Shown here piece after piece: positions 1-26,101 of a stretch of 32,900 bases of DNA. Each line of letters starts with the position of its first letter. The first letter of the stretch is position 1. The notes beneath the pieces were generated by a model. The model was not told where the DNA came from. It saw only the letters and a list, made by a program, of their open reading frames with translations, and searched no databases. The DNA comes from Desulfonatronovibrio sp. (GTDB lineage Bacteria > Desulfobacterota > Desulfovibrionia > Desulfovibrionales > Desulfonatronovibrionaceae). The DNA is taken from contig PWNK01000057.1 of assembly GCA_003557865.1 (NCBI GenBank), positions 1 through 32,900 on the forward strand, written 5' to 3'. Made by a program: the position numbers and the translations under genes.

Positions 1-275
1 ATGTTCAAAACCTGCCTGATCTTTTTGGGGATCAGCCTGTCCAGAATGGTGACCGCAATGTGCCCCCTGACCTGCTGGGTGGGAGCCATGGCCAGGCAGA
101 CGGCCAAGGCTCCCAGAAAGCCGGTGAGTTCGTAGGAACCCCTCAGGGGCTGGTCAACAAAACCGATGACCATGTTGCCGGTGGCCAGGAGCATCATCAG
201 ACACAGAACCACGGCCCCAAGGAAAAGCAGGACTTTGTTGATGAGGCTGGAAAGCCTGTACAGGTATTCAATCAT
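1..275 (-). CDS. TRAP transporter small permease (DctQ-like), partial
   Basis: The reading frame starts at the ATG at 275 and runs off the left edge, so about 91 N-terminal codons are present. The N-terminus begins MIEYLYRLSSLINK, followed by a strongly hydrophobic segment (about residues 15-37) and a second one (about 50-65) ending in the stretch APTQQVRGHIAV. This layout is typical of the four-helix DctQ subunit of TRAP transporters (inner membrane, Na+-driven uptake of carboxylates). Its ATG overlaps the dctP stop codon by one base (TGATG), so the two are translationally coupled. The large DctM subunit is expected further left, outside the window. The family call rests on this layout and on position behind dctP. 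Confidence 0.85.
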   Translation of the reverse strand, partial: MIEYLYRLSSLINKVLLFLGAVVLCLMMLLATGNMVIGFVDQPLRGSYELTGFLGALAVCLAMAPTQQVRGHIAVTILDRLIPKKIRQVLN

Positions 276-1288
276 CAGTTTTGAGAATATTTAGCCTCGT
301 AGTATTCTTTAAGCTCCAGAAGATCAGCCAGGATCTCTTCCGCCGGCAGGTTGTTCCGGACAGCCTCCTGTTTCCAGACATCAACCAGTCCGGCCAGCTT
401 TTCATCTATCAGGGCATATTCCTCAGGAGTAAGCTCGAAAATCCGGCTGTCATAATTGTCCCTGGAGTATTCCAGGGATTTTTCCACCTGGGCGTCCATG
501 TATTCTCCGGTCCACAGGGCCTGTTCCAGTCGCAGTTCATCCATGACCTGCTGGACATCCTGGGGAAGACTGTCCCACTTGTCCCTGTTCATGATCACTG
601 CAAAGGGGTAAACCTGAAGATCAAGTCTGGTGACATGAGGAGTGTAAGCTGCAAAATTAAAGTCCATGAGGACCTCCAGGGAGGAAAGCAATCCCTTGAC
701 CATTCCCCTCTGCAAGGCTTCCGGGGTCTCGGACATGGGCATGTCCACTGGAACGGCTCCCAGGATTTCCAGAATCTGCGATGCCGTACCCGAAGCCCTT
801 ATTTCAATGCCCCTGAGTTCAGCCAGGTTTGTAACGGGCTGCCTGGTCATAAGATTGGAAGGAGCAGTCCCGAACATGGTCAGAACCTTGACTTGCTCAA
901 ACTCTTTGGGCTGATATTTTTCAAAAAGATCCCACAGAACCAAGCTGGCCACCCTGGAAGAAGTAAAGCCCAGGGGCAGTTCAAGCACCGTGGTCATGGG
1001 GAAGACCCCGGGCTGGTTAGACATGCAAATATTTCCAATGTCGGCCTGGCCCTGGATCACTCCCCGGAACATGTTCCTGGCGCCCAGCAGGCTTCCACCG
1101 GGATATGTATCCACCCTTACCTTTCCGCCGGTCCTTTCTTCAACAGCCTCTTTCCATCTCTCCATCTGAACCGAGGGAAAAGTGCTGGCAGGGGGAAAAT
1201 TGGCATAGCTCAGCCTGATGGTTTCGGCCGAAGCCAGGCCATAAGACACCAGGACCAGAAAAACCGTTAAAATCATCTTTTTCAACAT
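275..1288 (-). CDS. TRAP transporter periplasmic substrate-binding protein (DctP family)
   Basis: This 337-residue protein has a Sec signal peptide (MLKKMILTVFLVLVSYGLASA, cleavage likely before ETIRLSY) and then a DctP-type solute-binding domain. Visible DctP hallmarks are the early WKEAVEERTGGKV stretch, LLGARNMFRGVIQGQADIG, and LRGIEIRASG. The Arg in the last stretch matches the conserved family Arg that binds the substrate carboxylate. The start at 1288 is chosen because GGGAGG lies 4-5 nt upstream; an upstream in-frame start at 1324 would add 12 residues ahead of the signal peptide. It is the first gene of an operon with dctQ. The mRNA leader carries a tryptophan-type attenuator, which suggests an aromatic substrate such as tryptophan, a precursor or a keto acid. 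That substrate is inferred from regulation only; DctP sequence alone does not give it. Confidence 0.93.
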   Translation of the reverse strand: MLKKMILTVFLVLVSYGLASAETIRLSYANFPPASTFPSVQMERWKEAVEERTGGKVRVDTYPGGSLLGARNMFRGVIQGQADIGNICMSNQPGVFPMTTVLELPLGFTSSRVASLVLWDLFEKYQPKEFEQVKVLTMFGTAPSNLMTRQPVTNLAELRGIEIRASGTASQILEILGAVPVDMPMSETPEALQRGMVKGLLSSLEVLMDFNFAAYTPHVTRLDLQVYPFAVIMNRDKWDSLPQDVQQVMDELRLEQALWTGEYMDAQVEKSLEYSRDNYDSRIFELTPEEYALIDEKLAGLVDVWKQEAVRNNLPAEEILADLLELKEYYEAKYSQN

Positions 1289-1321: not shown

Positions 1322-1361
1322 CAAAAAAAAAGGCCGTCAGACTTAAGAGCCTGCGGCCTGA
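1322..1361 (-). terminator. Intrinsic terminator of the dctP leader (attenuator hairpin 3:4)
   Basis: Read on the minus strand, AGGCCGCAG (1359-1351) can pair with CTGACGGCCT (1340-1331), giving six plus three base pairs around a bulged A. Nine T residues follow at 1331-1323. The hairpin lies about 35 nt ahead of the dctP start codon, inside the leader of the gene it would switch off. That placement is expected for an attenuator rather than for a terminator of an upstream gene, and no upstream minus-strand gene is present. Confidence 0.85.
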
Positions 1362-1484
1362 AAAACATTTAACTGCTTGCTTTTATGAAAGTATCAACTC
1401 TGATTCAGGCCGACTATTGGACATAGTCCACCACCAGTAAAGGCCTGATGTGCTGCACCATATTAATCTGAAGTTCTCTCTCAT
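1323..1484 (-). promoter_or_regulatory. Tryptophan-type transcription attenuator in the TRAP operon leader
   Basis: Four leader segments can pair in mutually exclusive ways. Segment 1 is TCAGGCC (1448-1442), segment 2 CGGCCTGA (1412-1405), segment 3 TCAGGCCG (1361-1354) and segment 4 CGGCCT (1336-1331). Pairing 1:2 gives 7 bp, 2:3 (antiterminator) 8 bp, and 3:4 is the terminator followed by nine T residues. Three consecutive TGG codons (1436-1428) in a short leader ORF sit just after segment 1. A ribosome stalled there for lack of charged tRNA-Trp would cover segment 1, free segment 2 to pair with 3, and permit read-through into dctP. This is the classic trp-leader logic. The pairing is seen in sequence; the response to tryptophan is inferred. 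Confidence 0.72.
1383..1484 (-). CDS. Putative Trp-rich leader peptide (33 aa)
   Basis: The ATG at 1484 opens a 33-codon frame ending with TAA at 1383-1385. It contains four Trp codons: one at codon 9 and a run of three at codons 17-19, inside the stretch SGLYWWWTMSNS. Triple Trp codons are characteristic of trp operon leader peptides. No clear Shine-Dalgarno sequence precedes the ATG, and the predicted promoter would start transcription about at the ATG itself, so translation may be leaderless. A second frame over the same DNA (ATG at 1461-1459, TAG about 45 nt later, just before segment 2) encodes a peptide rich in Val and Leu (RPLLVVDYVQ) and is a possible alternative. The regulatory amino acid is therefore not settled by sequence alone. 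Confidence 0.6.
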   Translation of the reverse strand: MRENFRLIWCSTSGLYWWWTMSNSRPESELILS

Positions 1485-1490
1485 AACAAC

Positions 1491-1520
1491 AGCATAATTT
1501 GCAGATAAAGCATTTGTCAA
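1491..1520 (-). promoter_or_regulatory. Sigma-70-type promoter for the TRAP operon leader
   Basis: On the minus strand a perfect -35 box TTGACA (1520-1515) is followed after 18 nt by TATGCT (1496-1491), a four-of-six match to the -10 consensus. Transcription would begin near 1484, at the leader ATG. The location directly ahead of the attenuator supports it. Confidence 0.6.
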
Positions 1521-1800: not shown

Positions 1801-2814
1801 ATGTCCAACGCAATTCTATGGAGAACACAGAAAAAAGACAGAGTACAGTGCATGGCCTGCAGTCATTTCTGCCTCATTGAATCCGGTGAACGCGGCCTTT
1901 GCGGAGTCAGGGAAAACAAAGGCGGAGCGATGCATACTCTGGTCAGAGATAAGGTGGTCGCCCTGAATGTTGATCCTGTTGAAAAAAAACCCCTTTTTCA
2001 TTTTTTGCCCGGCACACTGACCCTTTCCCTGGGCACAATGGGGTGCAATCTTTCCTGTTCTTTCTGCCAGAACTACACCCTGTCCCAGCCGCCCAGAAAT
2101 TACATGCCCATTGAGGGAGAAACAGTCAGCCCTGAAAGAATCATCCGCATGGCTGGGGACTACTATGCTTCAAGTATATCCTACACGTATTCCGAGCCCA
2201 CGGTATTTATTGAGCTGGTCATGGATACAGCTGTGCCGGCCAGGGAAAAAGGCCTCAAGAATATCATTGTCAGCAATGGATTCCAGAGCCAGCAATGTCT
2301 GAGGGAAATGAACGGATACATCGACGCAGCCAACATCGACCTCAAGGCCTTCAGCAACCAGTTTTACCGTGATTACTGCGGTGCGAAACTGCAACCTGTC
2401 CTGGACAATCTGATGGCAATCAAAGAGATGAACTGGTGGCTGGAAGTTACTACCCTGATTATTCCGGGGCTAAATGATTCTAATGAAGAGATTGAAAATA
2501 TGGCCCGTTTTATCTTCAGACAACTTGGCCCAGATACCCCGTGGCATCTGTCGCGCTTTCATCCAACCTTCAAAATGACCGGAATTCAGTCCACTCCCGT
2601 TGAAACCCTGGAAAGGGCTTGGGAAGCGGGAAAAGAAGCAGGGCTGAAGTTTGTCTACACAGGCAATGTCCCAGGACATGAAAAGGAAAACACGTTTTGT
2701 CCCGCCTGCGGCAAACAGATTATTAACAGGTTAGGATTTGATATCAAAGGTTCCCATGTCAACGACATGTCCTGCTCGTTCTGCGGGGTAAAAATTCCGG
2801 GAATCTGGGGATAA
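1801..2814 (+). CDS. amrS: AmmeMemoRadiSam system radical SAM enzyme AmrS
   Basis: This 337-residue protein has the radical SAM cluster motif CNLSCSFC (Cys 82, 86 and 89), preceded by an N-terminal Cys pair region (CMACSHFC, then GLCGVREN). It ends with two CxxC pairs (CPACGK and CSFCGVKIPGIWG). This architecture matches the AmrS family (COG1180, related to pyruvate formate-lyase activating enzymes). The family often occurs with AmrA and AmrB; neither is in this window, and its physiological substrate is not established to my knowledge. The start at 1801 has a GGGGGG run 5 nt upstream. An upstream TTG at 1744 would add residues encoded by the inverted repeat and is unlikely. The gene stands alone, with its own promoter. 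Confidence 0.9.
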   Translation: MSNAILWRTQKKDRVQCMACSHFCLIESGERGLCGVRENKGGAMHTLVRDKVVALNVDPVEKKPLFHFLPGTLTLSLGTMGCNLSCSFCQNYTLSQPPRNYMPIEGETVSPERIIRMAGDYYASSISYTYSEPTVFIELVMDTAVPAREKGLKNIIVSNGFQSQQCLREMNGYIDAANIDLKAFSNQFYRDYCGAKLQPVLDNLMAIKEMNWWLEVTTLIIPGLNDSNEEIENMARFIFRQLGPDTPWHLSRFHPTFKMTGIQSTPVETLERAWEAGKEAGLKFVYTGNVPGHEKENTFCPACGKQIINRLGFDIKGSHVNDMSCSFCGVKIPGIWG

Positions 2815-2862
2815 AGTCTTGGCCTGAGTCTGATCAAGGGGTCTTTGAACACTTTTTTAATG

Positions 2863-3010
2863 TATCTGTTTAGCGCTTTGCATGTGGCACGGGGACTGGC
2901 TCTTCCGGGACCCACTTGCCCCAAAAATAAGACATTTTAAGCACAAAGTGATGCTCAAGTGGGTCCCGGAGTGCCTGTCCCCTGCTTTCCTTAAAAGCGC
3001 TAAACAGATA
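2863..3010. repeat. Palindromic MITE/REP-like element between amrS and motE
   Basis: The element is an imperfect palindrome about 148 bp long. Outer arms TATCTGTTTAGCGCTTT (2863-2879) and their exact complement (2993-3009) enclose a second pair. That pair is GGGGAC followed by TCCGGGACCCACTTG (to 2918), mirrored by CAAGTGGGTCCCGGA (2956-2970) and GTCCCC (2978-2983). The centre is AT-rich. It encodes no protein and lies between the 3' ends of two convergent genes, a usual place for non-autonomous repeats, where it may also stop transcription from both sides. No target-site duplication is obvious. Copies elsewhere in the genome are expected but cannot be checked here. Confidence 0.7.
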
Positions 3011-3014
3011 CTTT

Positions 3015-3653
3015 TTAATCAACAAATGGTGTCTGCAGTTCAGTAAGCAACTCCGACAGCCTGGCAGCTTTTCTGGAATCAACGTGGGTCAGTATGTCAC
3101 CGGCCTGACGTCCGCGCATTCCGGACAGAATTTTGACAGAAATGGTTTCATCCAGGGTTTCCAGAACCTGGGCGGCCTGCTTGGCGTTCATGTTGGAGTA
3201 AACATCCACCAGATGCCTTATTTTCTGGTCCTTCAACACGTCAGCTTCTTCAAGCATTCTGTCCAGACTGGCTTCAAGTCTGGTCAGCTCCTGCAGCTTG
3301 TCATCGATGTCCTGCTGGAGCATACGCAGGTTTCTTTCCCTGCGGTCAAGCTCCGCCTCTCTTGCTCTTATTCTTTGAAGTTCCTGGCTGATATCAACGG
3401 GCTGTTCCTCCTGAACCTCTGTTTCAGGACCCCCTTCAACAGCCATGGCAGTTCTGGCTTCCACAAACAGGGGCTTTACCGCGGTGCCATCGGCTGCTTG
3501 CTCCCCGCTGCCGAACATGGCAAACATGAAGCCGATCTTGATTACTGCCAAGATCATAATAATCTGGAGCAGCCTAGATGGCTTTATGTTTATGACGGAC
3601 CACAGCCATTTCATCGAAGTTCTTCTGTTCTGTTTTTTCCTGTTCATGTTCAA
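3015..3653 (-). CDS. motE: MotE-like flagellar protein (motor-associated chaperone family)
   Basis: The frame encodes up to 212 residues: a basic N-terminus, one membrane segment (about residues 28-47, LLQIIMILAVIKIGFMFAMF) and an acidic linker. A coiled coil follows (about 80-140, rich in Glu, Arg and Leu), then a C-terminal domain with VYSNMNAKQAAQVLETLDE and MRGRQAGDIL. That C-terminal pattern resembles the MgtE N-terminal-like domain of MotE, which assists assembly of the stator protein MotC in some bacteria. The first ATG (3653) lies 80 nt inside fliJ; an internal ATG at residue 14 (3614) would still keep the membrane segment, and neither has a strong ribosome binding site. The overlap with fliJ indicates co-transcription. 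The role is inferred from family and partner gene. Confidence 0.75.
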   Translation of the reverse strand: MNMNRKKQNRRTSMKWLWSVINIKPSRLLQIIMILAVIKIGFMFAMFGSGEQAADGTAVKPLFVEARTAMAVEGGPETEVQEEQPVDISQELQRIRAREAELDRRERNLRMLQQDIDDKLQELTRLEASLDRMLEEADVLKDQKIRHLVDVYSNMNAKQAAQVLETLDETISVKILSGMRGRQAGDILTHVDSRKAARLSELLTELQTPFVD

Positions 3654-4017
3654 ATTTGATTTTCTGTTTGACTTTCAATTTTTCAATGATTCTTTTATCC
3701 CTGCTTTTCTCAAGAAGATACTGACGCTTGGCGCTGACTTCCCTGGCCAATTCTCCAAGCCGTAACCTGGCAAGCCTGAGGTCTGAATTCATTCGCTGAG
3801 TATATCTGTTCCAGAGCCAGATTCGATCCCTGGTCATATTTTCTTTTTTTCTGGATTCCTTCAGGGCCAGCTCCAGCTCATGTTCAAAGTTCTGCACAAG
3901 AACAATCTGATCCTGATACTTTTTTCTGGAACGGACCACCTCCAGTCGGGCTTGTTCTTCAAGGCTAGTCCTGTAATCCAGGACTTTCTGGAGATTATAC
4001 TTAAACACTTTTCTCAT
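3574..4017 (-). CDS. fliJ: Flagellar export protein FliJ
   Basis: This 147-residue, almost fully alpha-helical and highly charged protein starts MRKVFKYNLQKVLDYR. That is the usual FliJ opening, in which a FKY or FRL pattern precedes LQKVLDYR. FliJ is a soluble coiled-coil component of the flagellar type III export ATPase complex with FliI and FliH. In most genomes fliJ follows fliI; here the gene upstream is the divergent moeA, so fliJ-motE forms a detached two-gene unit. The ribosome binding site is weak. Assignment rests on length, helical charge pattern and the motE partner. Confidence 0.8.
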   Translation of the reverse strand: MRKVFKYNLQKVLDYRTSLEEQARLEVVRSRKKYQDQIVLVQNFEHELELALKESRKKENMTRDRIWLWNRYTQRMNSDLRLARLRLGELAREVSAKRQYLLEKSRDKRIIEKLKVKQKIKFEHEQEKTEQKNFDEMAVVRHKHKAI

Positions 4018-4385
4018 GATGGCAACAAGAATAACCTTTGGTCATGGCGCAGTTCACCTTGACAAACTGACTGATGGAAGCCTGACAGATGAACGCCATC
4101 AGCTGCCAAAACCATGGACCTTAAGCTGATGGTCATTTATAAGCATTTTCAGGTTATTTAGTGAAATCTGAACAGAGAATGCAACACATGGTTTTAACTC
4201 AAACGATCACTAATTGCTGTCACCAGAAATCCAGATGGACCGTTGCCGATCACATTGGGCGTCAGACATTTGCCTATCTTCATTCAAAAATCATGCCTTA
4301 TTTTTTGCAAGGCCATGCACTTTTCATTGTTCTGATAAAAGGGTAGTCTTTTTTATCCACTTGAATTTTTCAAAGGTACAGGCCC
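4018..4385. other. Divergent intergenic region fliJ/moeA with a 9-bp inverted repeat
   Basis: This 368-bp region separates two divergent genes and should hold both promoters. A perfect inverted repeat CCATCAGCT (4096-4104) / AGCTGATGG (4124-4132) with a 19-nt spacer is the only clear structure. It lacks a T-tract on either strand, so an operator is more likely than a terminator. I do not see a convincing sigma-70 promoter for either gene, and the short open frames here do not look coding. Confidence 0.4.
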
Positions 4386-6323
4386 ATGGAAAACAAAAGA
4401 AACATATACCTTCAGACTGTCTCCATCAACGATGCCCTGGGTATGATCAAGCAGGCCGTCGATCCTAGAAACGTCTTAAATGTCGAAACCGTTGCTACTC
4501 AGGAAGCAGCTTTCCGAGTCACTGCGCAGCCGGTCTGGGCCAGATATTCCTCCCCGACCTTTCACAGCGCTGCAATGGATGGGATTGCTGTAAAGGCCAA
4601 AAAAACATTCCAGGCCCGGGAGGGAACTCCTGTGACCTTGAAAAAGAATCTGGACTACATTGAAGTCAATACCGGCAATCCCATGCCTGCGGAAATGGAC
4701 TGCGTAATCATGGTCGAAAAAATTGTGCAGCTGGACCCTGAGACTATCCTCATTGAGAGCCCCGCCTTTCCGTGGCAGAATGTTCGCCGCGTTGGGGAGG
4801 ATATCGTGGCCACCGAGCTGCTCATCCCACAGAACCATCAACTTTCACCTTATGATGTAGGCGCTCTGCTCAGTGCCGGAATCTGGGAGGTCAAGGTCAG
4901 GGAGCAGGTCAAGATCCATATTATTCCCACCGGGGATGAAGTTCTTGACTTTACTTTAAAACCCCAGCCAAATCCGGGACAGGTTATAGAAAGTAACTCC
5001 CAGGTACTTTCATCCCTGGCCAGCATGTGGCGATGTGAAATACACAGGACCTCTCCTGTACCCGACAATCCGCAAAGGCTTGAGGCAGCAGTGCGCGAGG
5101 CCCTTGAATCCCCGGCTCATGTAATTGTCATCGGGGCCGGCTCCTCTGCTGGGAGCAAGGATTTCACCAGACAGATCATGGAAGTGTTCGGCTCGGTTCT
5201 TGTGCACGGGATTAAGGCCATGCCTGGAAAGCCTACCGTCATCGGAGTCGCGGAAAACAAAATCATCATCGGAGCCCCCGGATACCCTGTAAGCTCAATT
5301 ATTTGCTTTGAGCAGATTATCAGACCCATTGTTTACTGGCTGTCCAGAAGACACCCCCCTGAGCCGGAAATCATTGAAGCCAGACTGACGAGAAAGGTTC
5401 CTTCAAGGCTGGGTATGGAAGAATTTTTGAGGGTTTCCGTGGGCAGGGTCAATAACGTTTACGTGGCCACACCCTTGCCCCGAGGAGCGGGAATGATCAC
5501 CACCATGACCAGGGCCCAGGGAATAACCCGCATCAGCCAGGACCTGGAAGGCCTTGCCAGAAACAAAACCGTTAAAATCGAGCTGCTGAAACCTGAAAAG
5601 GAGATAGACAGGGTGCTGGTGATAGTGGGCAGCCACGACAATACCCTTGACCTGCTGGCCAATGAACTTATGGGAATTGAAAATCCCATCCACCTTGCTT
5701 CCACCCACCTGGGAAGCATGGGGGGAATTACAGCTGCCAGCGAAGCCTCAGCGCACCTTGCCGGGATGCATCTTTTTGATCCGGAATCCAATGACTATAA
5801 CTTTCCTTTCCTGGCAAAATATGCCCCTGGACTGAAATTTAAACTTATCAATCTGGCAATCAGGCATCAGGGGCTGATAGTGCCACCTGGCAACCCCAAG
5901 AACATCCGGGATATTCATGACCTGGCTGAAAAAAATATTGTCTTCATCAACCGTCAGAAAGGTGCCGGAACCAGAATCCTTCTGGACCATCATCTCAAGA
6001 ATGCGGGCATTTTACCGGACAGCATAACCGGATACGACAAGGAAGAATTTACGCACATGGCAGTAGCGGTCAATGTCCTCAGTGGAGCTGCCGACTGCGG
6101 ACTGGGCATAATGGCTGCGGCCACAGCCCTGAATCTGGATTTTGTCCCCCTGGCCAGGGAAAGATACGATCTGCTTATCCCTGATTACTCTATTGATGAT
6201 CCAAAAGTTGACATTTTGCTCAGTCTTGTCAAATCAGATCATTTTAAGAAAAAAATAAAATCCATGGGAGGTTACGAGACTGATCTGTCAGGAATGGAGA
6301 TGAAACCCGGACAGGGCCTGTAG
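4386..6323 (+). CDS. MoeA-type molybdopterin molybdotransferase fused to a periplasmic-binding-like domain
   Basis: The protein has 645 residues against about 400 for MoeA alone. Residues 1 to about 405 form MoeA: SAAMDGIAV (about 61-69), the IPTGDEV turn, GAGSSAGSKDFT (the metal/MPT-adenylate loop, usually GGVSVGD), AMPGKP and GAPGYPVSS. Residues about 415-640 form a PBP-like domain (PF12727 type) with VGSHDNTLDLLANEL, LASTHLGSMGG, FINRQKGAGTRILLDHHL and a closing lobe with AADCGLG. MoeA inserts molybdate (or tungstate) into adenylylated molybdopterin; the attached domain may sense or present the oxyanion or a cofactor intermediate. Such fusions are known in anaerobes, but their role is unclear to me. 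Start: AAGG at a 9-10 nt spacing. It ends one base before the convergent cobS 3' end. Confidence 0.88.
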   Translation: MENKRNIYLQTVSINDALGMIKQAVDPRNVLNVETVATQEAAFRVTAQPVWARYSSPTFHSAAMDGIAVKAKKTFQAREGTPVTLKKNLDYIEVNTGNPMPAEMDCVIMVEKIVQLDPETILIESPAFPWQNVRRVGEDIVATELLIPQNHQLSPYDVGALLSAGIWEVKVREQVKIHIIPTGDEVLDFTLKPQPNPGQVIESNSQVLSSLASMWRCEIHRTSPVPDNPQRLEAAVREALESPAHVIVIGAGSSAGSKDFTRQIMEVFGSVLVHGIKAMPGKPTVIGVAENKIIIGAPGYPVSSIICFEQIIRPIVYWLSRRHPPEPEIIEARLTRKVPSRLGMEEFLRVSVGRVNNVYVATPLPRGAGMITTMTRAQGITRISQDLEGLARNKTVKIELLKPEKEIDRVLVIVGSHDNTLDLLANELMGIENPIHLASTHLGSMGGITAASEASAHLAGMHLFDPESNDYNFPFLAKYAPGLKFKLINLAIRHQGLIVPPGNPKNIRDIHDLAEKNIVFINRQKGAGTRILLDHHLKNAGILPDSITGYDKEEFTHMAVAVNVLSGAADCGLGIMAAATALNLDFVPLARERYDLLIPDYSIDDPKVDILLSLVKSDHFKKKIKSMGGYETDLSGMEMKPGQGL

Positions 6324-25656: not shown

Positions 25657-25895
25657 GGCTTACTCCTTATTATATATGTTGTTTTCCCTTGAAGCCAGAA
25701 AGATAAACAAACTGACCACAGGAAATTGAAATGTTAAGAATGTCCCGGAAACAATTGAACTGTTTTTTGATGGAACGATTCTGAGCAGGACGGGCCATAC
25801 TCAGATCCCAGCAAGAGGAGCGCCTTATGAACCAGAGAAACCCGGAAAAGGCAGTTGATGTGACTTGATCAGTCAGCAGGTCTGGCTGAAAGAAG

Positions 25896-26076
25896 AGTCC
25901 CCGGCAGGCCGTGTGGGAACTTATTTTGAACCTCGTTATTATAAGTGGACGCCAGAGCAACTCCTTCAGGCTCCCCCGAAAAAACCGGGGTCTGCTCACC
26001 AAAGCTGCACAACAGCACCCATGAGGTTAGTGTTGGCTCAAAATAAATTGCCTTCATCACGAACCAGCCAGGGATT
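25896..26076 (-). ncRNA. ssrS: 6S RNA
   Basis: The minus strand folds into a 6S-like rod of about 180 nt. A terminal closing stem pairs TCCCTGGC...GG..CGTG (5' side, from 26074) with CACGGCCTGCCGGGGA (25913-25898), with G-U pairs. An inner stem TTATTTTGA / TCAAAATAA follows, and near the tip TTGGTGAGCA precedes a CCCCG/CGGGG hairpin and GAGCC. The TTGGTGAGCA...GAGCCT block is shared with E. coli 6S RNA in the same position. Location directly behind zapA is the classic ssrS context. 6S RNA binds the housekeeping RNA polymerase as a promoter mimic. Ends are good to about 10 nt. The remaining 230 bp up to rny shows no gene or clear terminator. Confidence 0.85.
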
Positions 26077-26101
26077 ATCGTCAAAAACATTTCTGTCTTT
26101 A

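Follow-up and report, generated by a model that had tools for sequence, protein, structure and literature searches.

In the Desulfonatronovibrio sp. genome studied here, the TRAP importer genes dctPQM are very probably controlled by a ribosome-mediated, tryptophan-sensing transcription attenuator, and the importer would take up indole-type or related aromatic acids that could feed the tryptophan supply. The window (the whole stretch of DNA analysed, 32,900 nucleotides) is one contig of this draft genome of 1.80 Mb. A first-pass annotation, made from the sequence alone, had described a promoter, a short ORF with three consecutive Trp codons and one more, four pairing segments and a run of nine Ts in front of dctP. 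All of them were confirmed at the positions given there, on the minus strand between 1520 and 1323. The leader and the genes that follow it comprise:

1491..1520 (-): sigma-70 type promoter TTGACA-18-TATGCT, with -35 TTGACA at 1520-1515, an 18-nt spacer and -10 TATGCT at 1496-1491 (promoter scan, 10/12 matches; same position and spacing in relatives)
1383..1484 (-): leader ORF of 33 codons, predicted leaderless, ATG at 1484-1482, stop TAA at 1385-1383, peptide MRENFRLIWCSTSGLYWWWTMSNSRPESELILS (conserved form in 17 loci)
1458..1460 (-): single Trp codon ahead of the run, codon 9 of the ORF (L013 and L004 likewise have Trp there)
1442..1448 (-): segment 1, TCAGGCC, partner of segment 2 (1:2 duplex -14.3 kcal/mol, shuffle p 0.027)
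1428..1436 (-): Trp codons 17-19 (TGG-TGG-TGG), the putative sensor (TGGTGG is a nearly invariant column block in the alignment)
1404..1412 (-): segment 2, CGGCCTGAA, partner of segment 1 or 3, core CGGCCTGA at 1412-1405
1354..1362 (-): segment 3, TTCAGGCCG, partner of segment 2 (antiterminator) or 4 (terminator), core TCAGGCCG at 1361-1354
1336-1331 (-): segment 4, CGGCCT, partner of segment 3
1323..1359 (-): intrinsic terminator, hairpin 1359-1331 (3:4) and T9 at 1331-1323 (ViennaRNA -19.1 kcal/mol; conserved in relatives)
1300-1294 (-): dctP ribosome site AGGGAGG
278..1288 (-): dctP, TRAP solute-binding protein (PF03480, 143.6 bits; structural relatives 4nap, 4n6d, 4pgn)
1..275 (-): dctQ, cut by the contig end (PF04290)

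Two features go beyond the first-pass annotation. The leader ATG lies only 6 nt past the -10 box, which places the predicted 5' end of the leader mRNA at the AUG or within a few nt of it, and the stop codon of the leader is located between segments 2 and 3. Segment 2 lies 12 nt past the Trp run, and the intrinsic terminator stands between the leader ORF and dctP, the first structural gene. The 3:4 hairpin was not called by the automated terminator scan, probably because its stem has a one-base bulge. In relatives, a dctQ-sized and then a dctM-sized gene are found downstream of dctP, corresponding to the operon dctPQM.

The idea that dctP orthologues might sit beside trp genes was not borne out in the neighbourhoods inspected (raw ORF lists). 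Downstream genes vary among relatives and no trp gene was recognised there, and neighbouring genes were rejected on these grounds as an explanation of the leader element. On its other side (window 1801-6323), dctP is adjoined by two further genes, one for a divergent radical-SAM protein and the other for a MoeA protein that carries a fused PBP-like domain, and neighbours of the radical-SAM/MoeA type recur in genus relatives.

Conservation of the leader in the order

Searching with DctP (P0001) at E <= 1e-60 gave matches in 84 of the 247 genomes of the order, and a class-level search returned matches from the same order only. Judged by DctP, the closest relatives that bear a name are assemblies of Desulfonatronovibrio, at 83-86% identity. 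Upstream regions were read for these matches and for some 35 homologues of another collection, a few loci representing the same genome twice. A Trp-rich leader was detected upstream of dctP in 17 loci, distributed over 5 of the 6 lettered families sampled (f1, f2, f3, f5 and f6) and one other deltaproteobacterial assembly (L007).

The tandem Trp codons of the short predicted ORF read WWW in the window and WW, WWW or W.W across the 17 homologous leaders. Outside the Trp run the peptides are very different, with an almost constant spacing, as in L013 (MEANIRSAWPNEYALYWWRRLYIARPEPDQGIV), L004 (MQGTNRSAWHIEYGLYWWRTIDISRPEPVQDNV) and L045 (MRNKAGSFLSEHGLNWWWPLNNSRPGTDQKSA), or in L046 (MKKLNFQTAALDFSWTGFWWWRSRICCGLKGAL), L089 (MRRTQFSHTFLAPVSTAWWWQWWRVSCGLAGICR) and L051 (MTQNNCLDLFLPPRVQAWAWRFWPQVKCGPNRGGL). 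The start codon is located 4-10 nt past the -10 box. The Trp run begins at +45 to +54 in 15 of the 17 leaders (near +50), and in most of them the leader stop is found at +90 to +105 (near +95) and the T-run at +144 to +162 (near +153). The window, L013, L046, L049, L054 and L089 have the ATG exactly 6 nt past the -10 hexamer; judging from the promoter position, the 5' ends of their transcripts are expected to coincide with the AUG or adjoin it. Segment 2 usually lies 9-20 nt past the Trp run, so that a stalled ribosome would leave it free. In L004 the distance from the leader to dctP is longer by about 250 nt, and the internal spacing of the leader is unchanged.

The test named in the first-pass annotation, whether orthologous leaders lack the Trp codons or the alternative stems, came out in its favour. 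Of the 6 same-genus genes examined (window included), 5 retain tandem Trp codons together with the antiterminator, the terminator and the distances between the elements, and the same features are kept in members of several other families of the order. The attenuator is common in families related to the window; it is absent from most Desulfovibrionaceae-type (f5) orthologues, and for this reason the element is not universal. In the f5 regions inspected, the terminators found ahead of dctP appear to be those of the preceding gene. The same-genus locus L043 (78% identity) retains the attenuator terminator, preceded by unrelated sequence with no recognisable promoter, leader ORF or Trp codons. From the lack of a leader in most f5 orthologues and in L043, we infer that the transporter works without it there. 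In a tree built from 117 DctP proteins, presence of the attenuator required 6 changes versus 16 with shuffled labels, and none of 500 shuffles gave a value as low.

Pairing potential and proposed mechanism

In the window leader, the 2:3 duplex reaches -17.2 kcal/mol (shuffle p 0.003). Across the relatives an alternative antiterminator is present as pairing potential, which is weak in several of them: the 2:3 duplex outperformed shuffled spacers (p <= 0.01) in 9 of the 17 leaders and was non-significant in L045, L054, L056, L118, L119, L121 and L007, and for L013 the script chose the wrong hairpin. In a 13-leader alignment (A1), 87% of the 2:3 cells pair, versus 25-56% when the segments are slid by 1-3 columns. 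The 3:4 cells of the same alignment are paired at 82%, and still at 72% when slid by +1. Matching differences were observed in segments 1/2/3, which read CAGACC/GGTCTG/CAGGCC in L046 and TGGACC/GGTCCA/TGGGCC in L051. Covariation was weak relative to column shuffles (28 of 500 as high, for cells with both sides changed). Its modest level is explained by the near-invariance of the GGCC core, which is what would be expected of a segment with two required pairings. The mutually exclusive pairings and the conserved spacing support the earlier description of a trp-leader architecture in front of a TRAP operon.

We propose that transcription begins at or adjoining the leader-peptide AUG. When charged tRNA-Trp is scarce, the ribosome would stall at codons 17-19 and cover segment 1, leaving segment 2 free to pair with the emerging segment 3. 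The 2:3 pairing would block the 3:4 terminator, and dctPQM would be transcribed. When Trp is ample, the ribosome would pass segment 2 and reach the stop codon between segments 2 and 3. Owing to this location of the stop codon, 3:4 could then form, and transcription would end before dctP.

Folding with the ribosome footprint masked supports this scheme: segment 3 paired with the zone of segment 2 at 0.81 when the ribosome was placed at the Trp codons and at 0.25 when it was placed on segment 2. L049 scored low in this calculation (0.14). The simple fold of the window leader still favours the antiterminator both without a ribosome (0.75) and with the ribosome masked at the stop codon (0.77). As segments 2 and 3 are separated by about 42 nt, of which about 30 would be inside the ribosome, we argue that a ribosome at the stop codon would block 2:3 sterically, a step on which the proposed scheme then depends.

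The transporter and its substrate

DctP is 53-56% identical over its whole length to two crystallised proteins, Dde_0634 of Oleidesulfovibrio alaskensis G20 (4nap, 4pgn, 4pgp) and Desal_3247 (4n6d), and belongs by sequence and fold to the same TRAP subfamily. The phmmer matches to these solved members, 4n6d (402 bits), 4pgn/4pgp and 4nap, have E-values of 2e-119 to 3e-105. The predicted model of DctP (pLDDT 90.7) superimposes on 4nap with Z 46.1 and an rmsd of 1.1 over 310 residues at 53% identity. The subfamily does not carry the attenuator throughout, most sampled orthologues of the Desulfovibrionaceae type being without it. The 4nap structure presumably holds D-tryptophan, and 4pgn/4pgp indole pyruvate and indoleacetate. 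Binding of indole-3-acetate by Dde_0634, the 4nap protein, has been reported (PMC9973260), and a review names indole acids as ligands of TRAP proteins identified in the EFI screen (PMC5812351). The first-pass statement that the substrate of this TRAP system cannot be read from sequence was therefore too strong, the nearest solved relatives being known; its guessed substrate class, which included indole compounds, agrees with the reported ligand. The native substrate of the window DctP would then be an indole compound, by extension from proteins that are only 53-56% identical.

The imported acid (indole-3-acetate, indolepyruvate or similar) would be converted to tryptophan or would spare it. 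The genome has a trp operon, a gene for the alpha subunit of indolepyruvate ferredoxin oxidoreductase (iorA) detected above its curated cut-off, and several phenylacetate-CoA-ligase-like genes below their cut-offs. In anaerobes, arylacetates can undergo reductive carboxylation to aryl-pyruvates, which can then be transaminated.

The same transporter may also have a catabolic setting. In several Desulfobacterales-type loci (L011, L012, L016, L018, L020, L027-L029 and L031), an out-of-frame ORF, WQPMMWAGP..., recurs upstream of dctP. It looks like a shifted reading of a gene of the xanthine dehydrogenase/aldehyde oxidoreductase type, and the presence of such a gene near dctP would suggest this setting.

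Alternative explanations

Short ORFs with WW do arise randomly: in the 300 nt upstream of each of 116 dctP homologues, 2.76 are expected per 116 regions when no terminator is required. A GC-rich repeat with TGG codons next to an ordinary terminator is nevertheless an extremely improbable origin of the leader. A tandem-Trp short ORF with a strong terminator was observed upstream of 13 of the 116 homologues against 0.04 expected from dinucleotide shuffles, and only 4 of 5000 such shuffles of the 300 nt upstream of dctP in the window produced this combination. These counts, together with the single geometry shared by 17 loci, rule out a chance origin. The second DctP gene of the same genome (L001, 35% identical) has no Trp leader upstream. 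When the genome was searched for TGGTGG with a T-run at the right distance, the raw matches (48) equalled those of the reversed control (48); on informal inspection by eye, only the dctP and tyrA-trpE sites among them resembled attenuators. A different concern is that the terminator could belong to a constitutive leader or small RNA whose Trp-rich ORF is translated with no control of read-through. A leaderless ORF on a transcript terminated after about 160 nt would indeed resemble the trans-acting rnTrpL of Sinorhizobium meliloti (PMC7298713). We consider it very improbable that this is all the element does, because relatives conserve segment 2, the antiterminator, and its distance from the Trp run, neither of which a plain small RNA would need, and because the element lies shortly upstream of dctP in nearly all cases. 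Roles as a small RNA and as a cis-attenuator are not exclusive.

Accepting a real Trp attenuator, the transporter might import some other compound (an aromatic keto acid, an arylacetate, anthranilate or Trp itself) or serve electron or carbon metabolism, tryptophan acting as a proxy. The phenylacetate-CoA-ligase-like genes would fit such a use, as would the next structural neighbours of DctP beyond Dde_0634 and Desal_3247, aromatic-acid TRAP proteins that bind coumarate, cinnamate or 4-hydroxyphenylacetate. These neighbours share only 19-27% identity with DctP, however, far below the two closest structures. The ligand reported for Dde_0634 and the nature of the sensor codons, which are Trp and not Phe or Tyr, also speak against it, and we hold this possibility to be rather unlikely compared with import of an indole-type acid for the tryptophan supply.

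Comparison with known Trp leaders

The dctP leader resembles the E. coli-type trpL (Rfam RF00513, Trp_leader) in its tandem-Trp peptide, its alternative 1:2, 2:3 and 3:4 pairings and its U-run terminator upstream of the regulated genes. It differs in its target, a TRAP transporter in place of biosynthesis, in its leaderless ORF, and in a longer peptide (about 33 codons) whose stop codon falls between segments 2 and 3. RF00513 did not match the leader at its gathering score, nor up to an E-value of 5, and no leader family of Rfam was found at gathering or permissive thresholds; matches to suhB, S-element and Thr_leader were weak, far below gathering scores, and were discarded. In S. meliloti trpL, the transcript starts with the leader-peptide AUG and rnTrpL acts in trans (PMC7298713). 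The dctP leader is similar in its predicted AUG-initial transcript and in its proposed attenuation by Trp codons, whereas the S. meliloti leader regulates trpE(G), encodes a 14-residue peptide and has trans roles that have been shown (PMC7298713).

No Trp-attenuated TRAP transporter was found in the open-access literature searched, nor was Trp attenuation in Desulfovibrio. The mechanism itself is already known; what is new, as far as this literature shows, is its target, its leaderless form in this order and the proposed substrate. TRAP transporters are numerous and their physiological substrates mostly unknown, and a Trp attenuator indicates what the cell employs one of them for, with no binding assay needed. 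This assigns a purpose to a subfamily known from crystal structures (Dde_0634, Desal_3247) and provides a testable link between environmental indole acids and the tryptophan supply of sulfate reducers. Ribosome-mediated attenuation in this order thereby gains leaderless leader peptides and a transporter target.

A probable second Trp sensor at the tyrA-trpE junction

In the same genome (contig C42, L125:7080-8100), ALWWWRNEKNPGGQ forms the end of a prephenate-dehydrogenase-like gene, with a terminator next and trpE after it. We found the same arrangement throughout the order: in 30 of 30 loci (L144-L173), tyrA has WW or WWW near the C-terminus, with a few codons after it, and a terminator T-run is located 54-105 nt past the stop codon. 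The trpE gene lies downstream in 27 of the 30, and no trpE match was detected within the stretch examined in the other three. Outside the order, none of 10 tyrA homologues had a Trp run at its C-terminus or a trpE in the stretch examined. As in the dctP leader, tandem Trp codons are followed, about 82-106 nt further on in nearly all loci, by a terminator and then by the regulated gene, with the difference that the Trp codons here sit at the 3' end of a complete enzyme gene and not in a free-standing ORF. In Desulfovibrionales, the C-terminus of tyrA seems to act as the Trp leader peptide for the trp operon as well. Antiterminator pairing is clear in some loci (L161, L162) and non-significant in many, which makes this leader a strong lead and not a proof.

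Tentatively, and with somewhat less than even confidence, we suggest that in much of Desulfovibrionales one Trp-starvation signal, read by tandem Trp codons, switches on Trp synthesis through the codons built into the 3' end of tyrA, upstream of trpE. Many members would use it also to switch on the indole-acid TRAP importer, through the leaderless attenuator of dctPQM. Scavenged indoleacetate or indolepyruvate could then yield Trp via a reductive indolepyruvate ferredoxin oxidoreductase and a transaminase.

Apart from the dctP leader, the window contains a 6S RNA (RF00013, 97.9 bits) at 25894-26077 on the minus strand.
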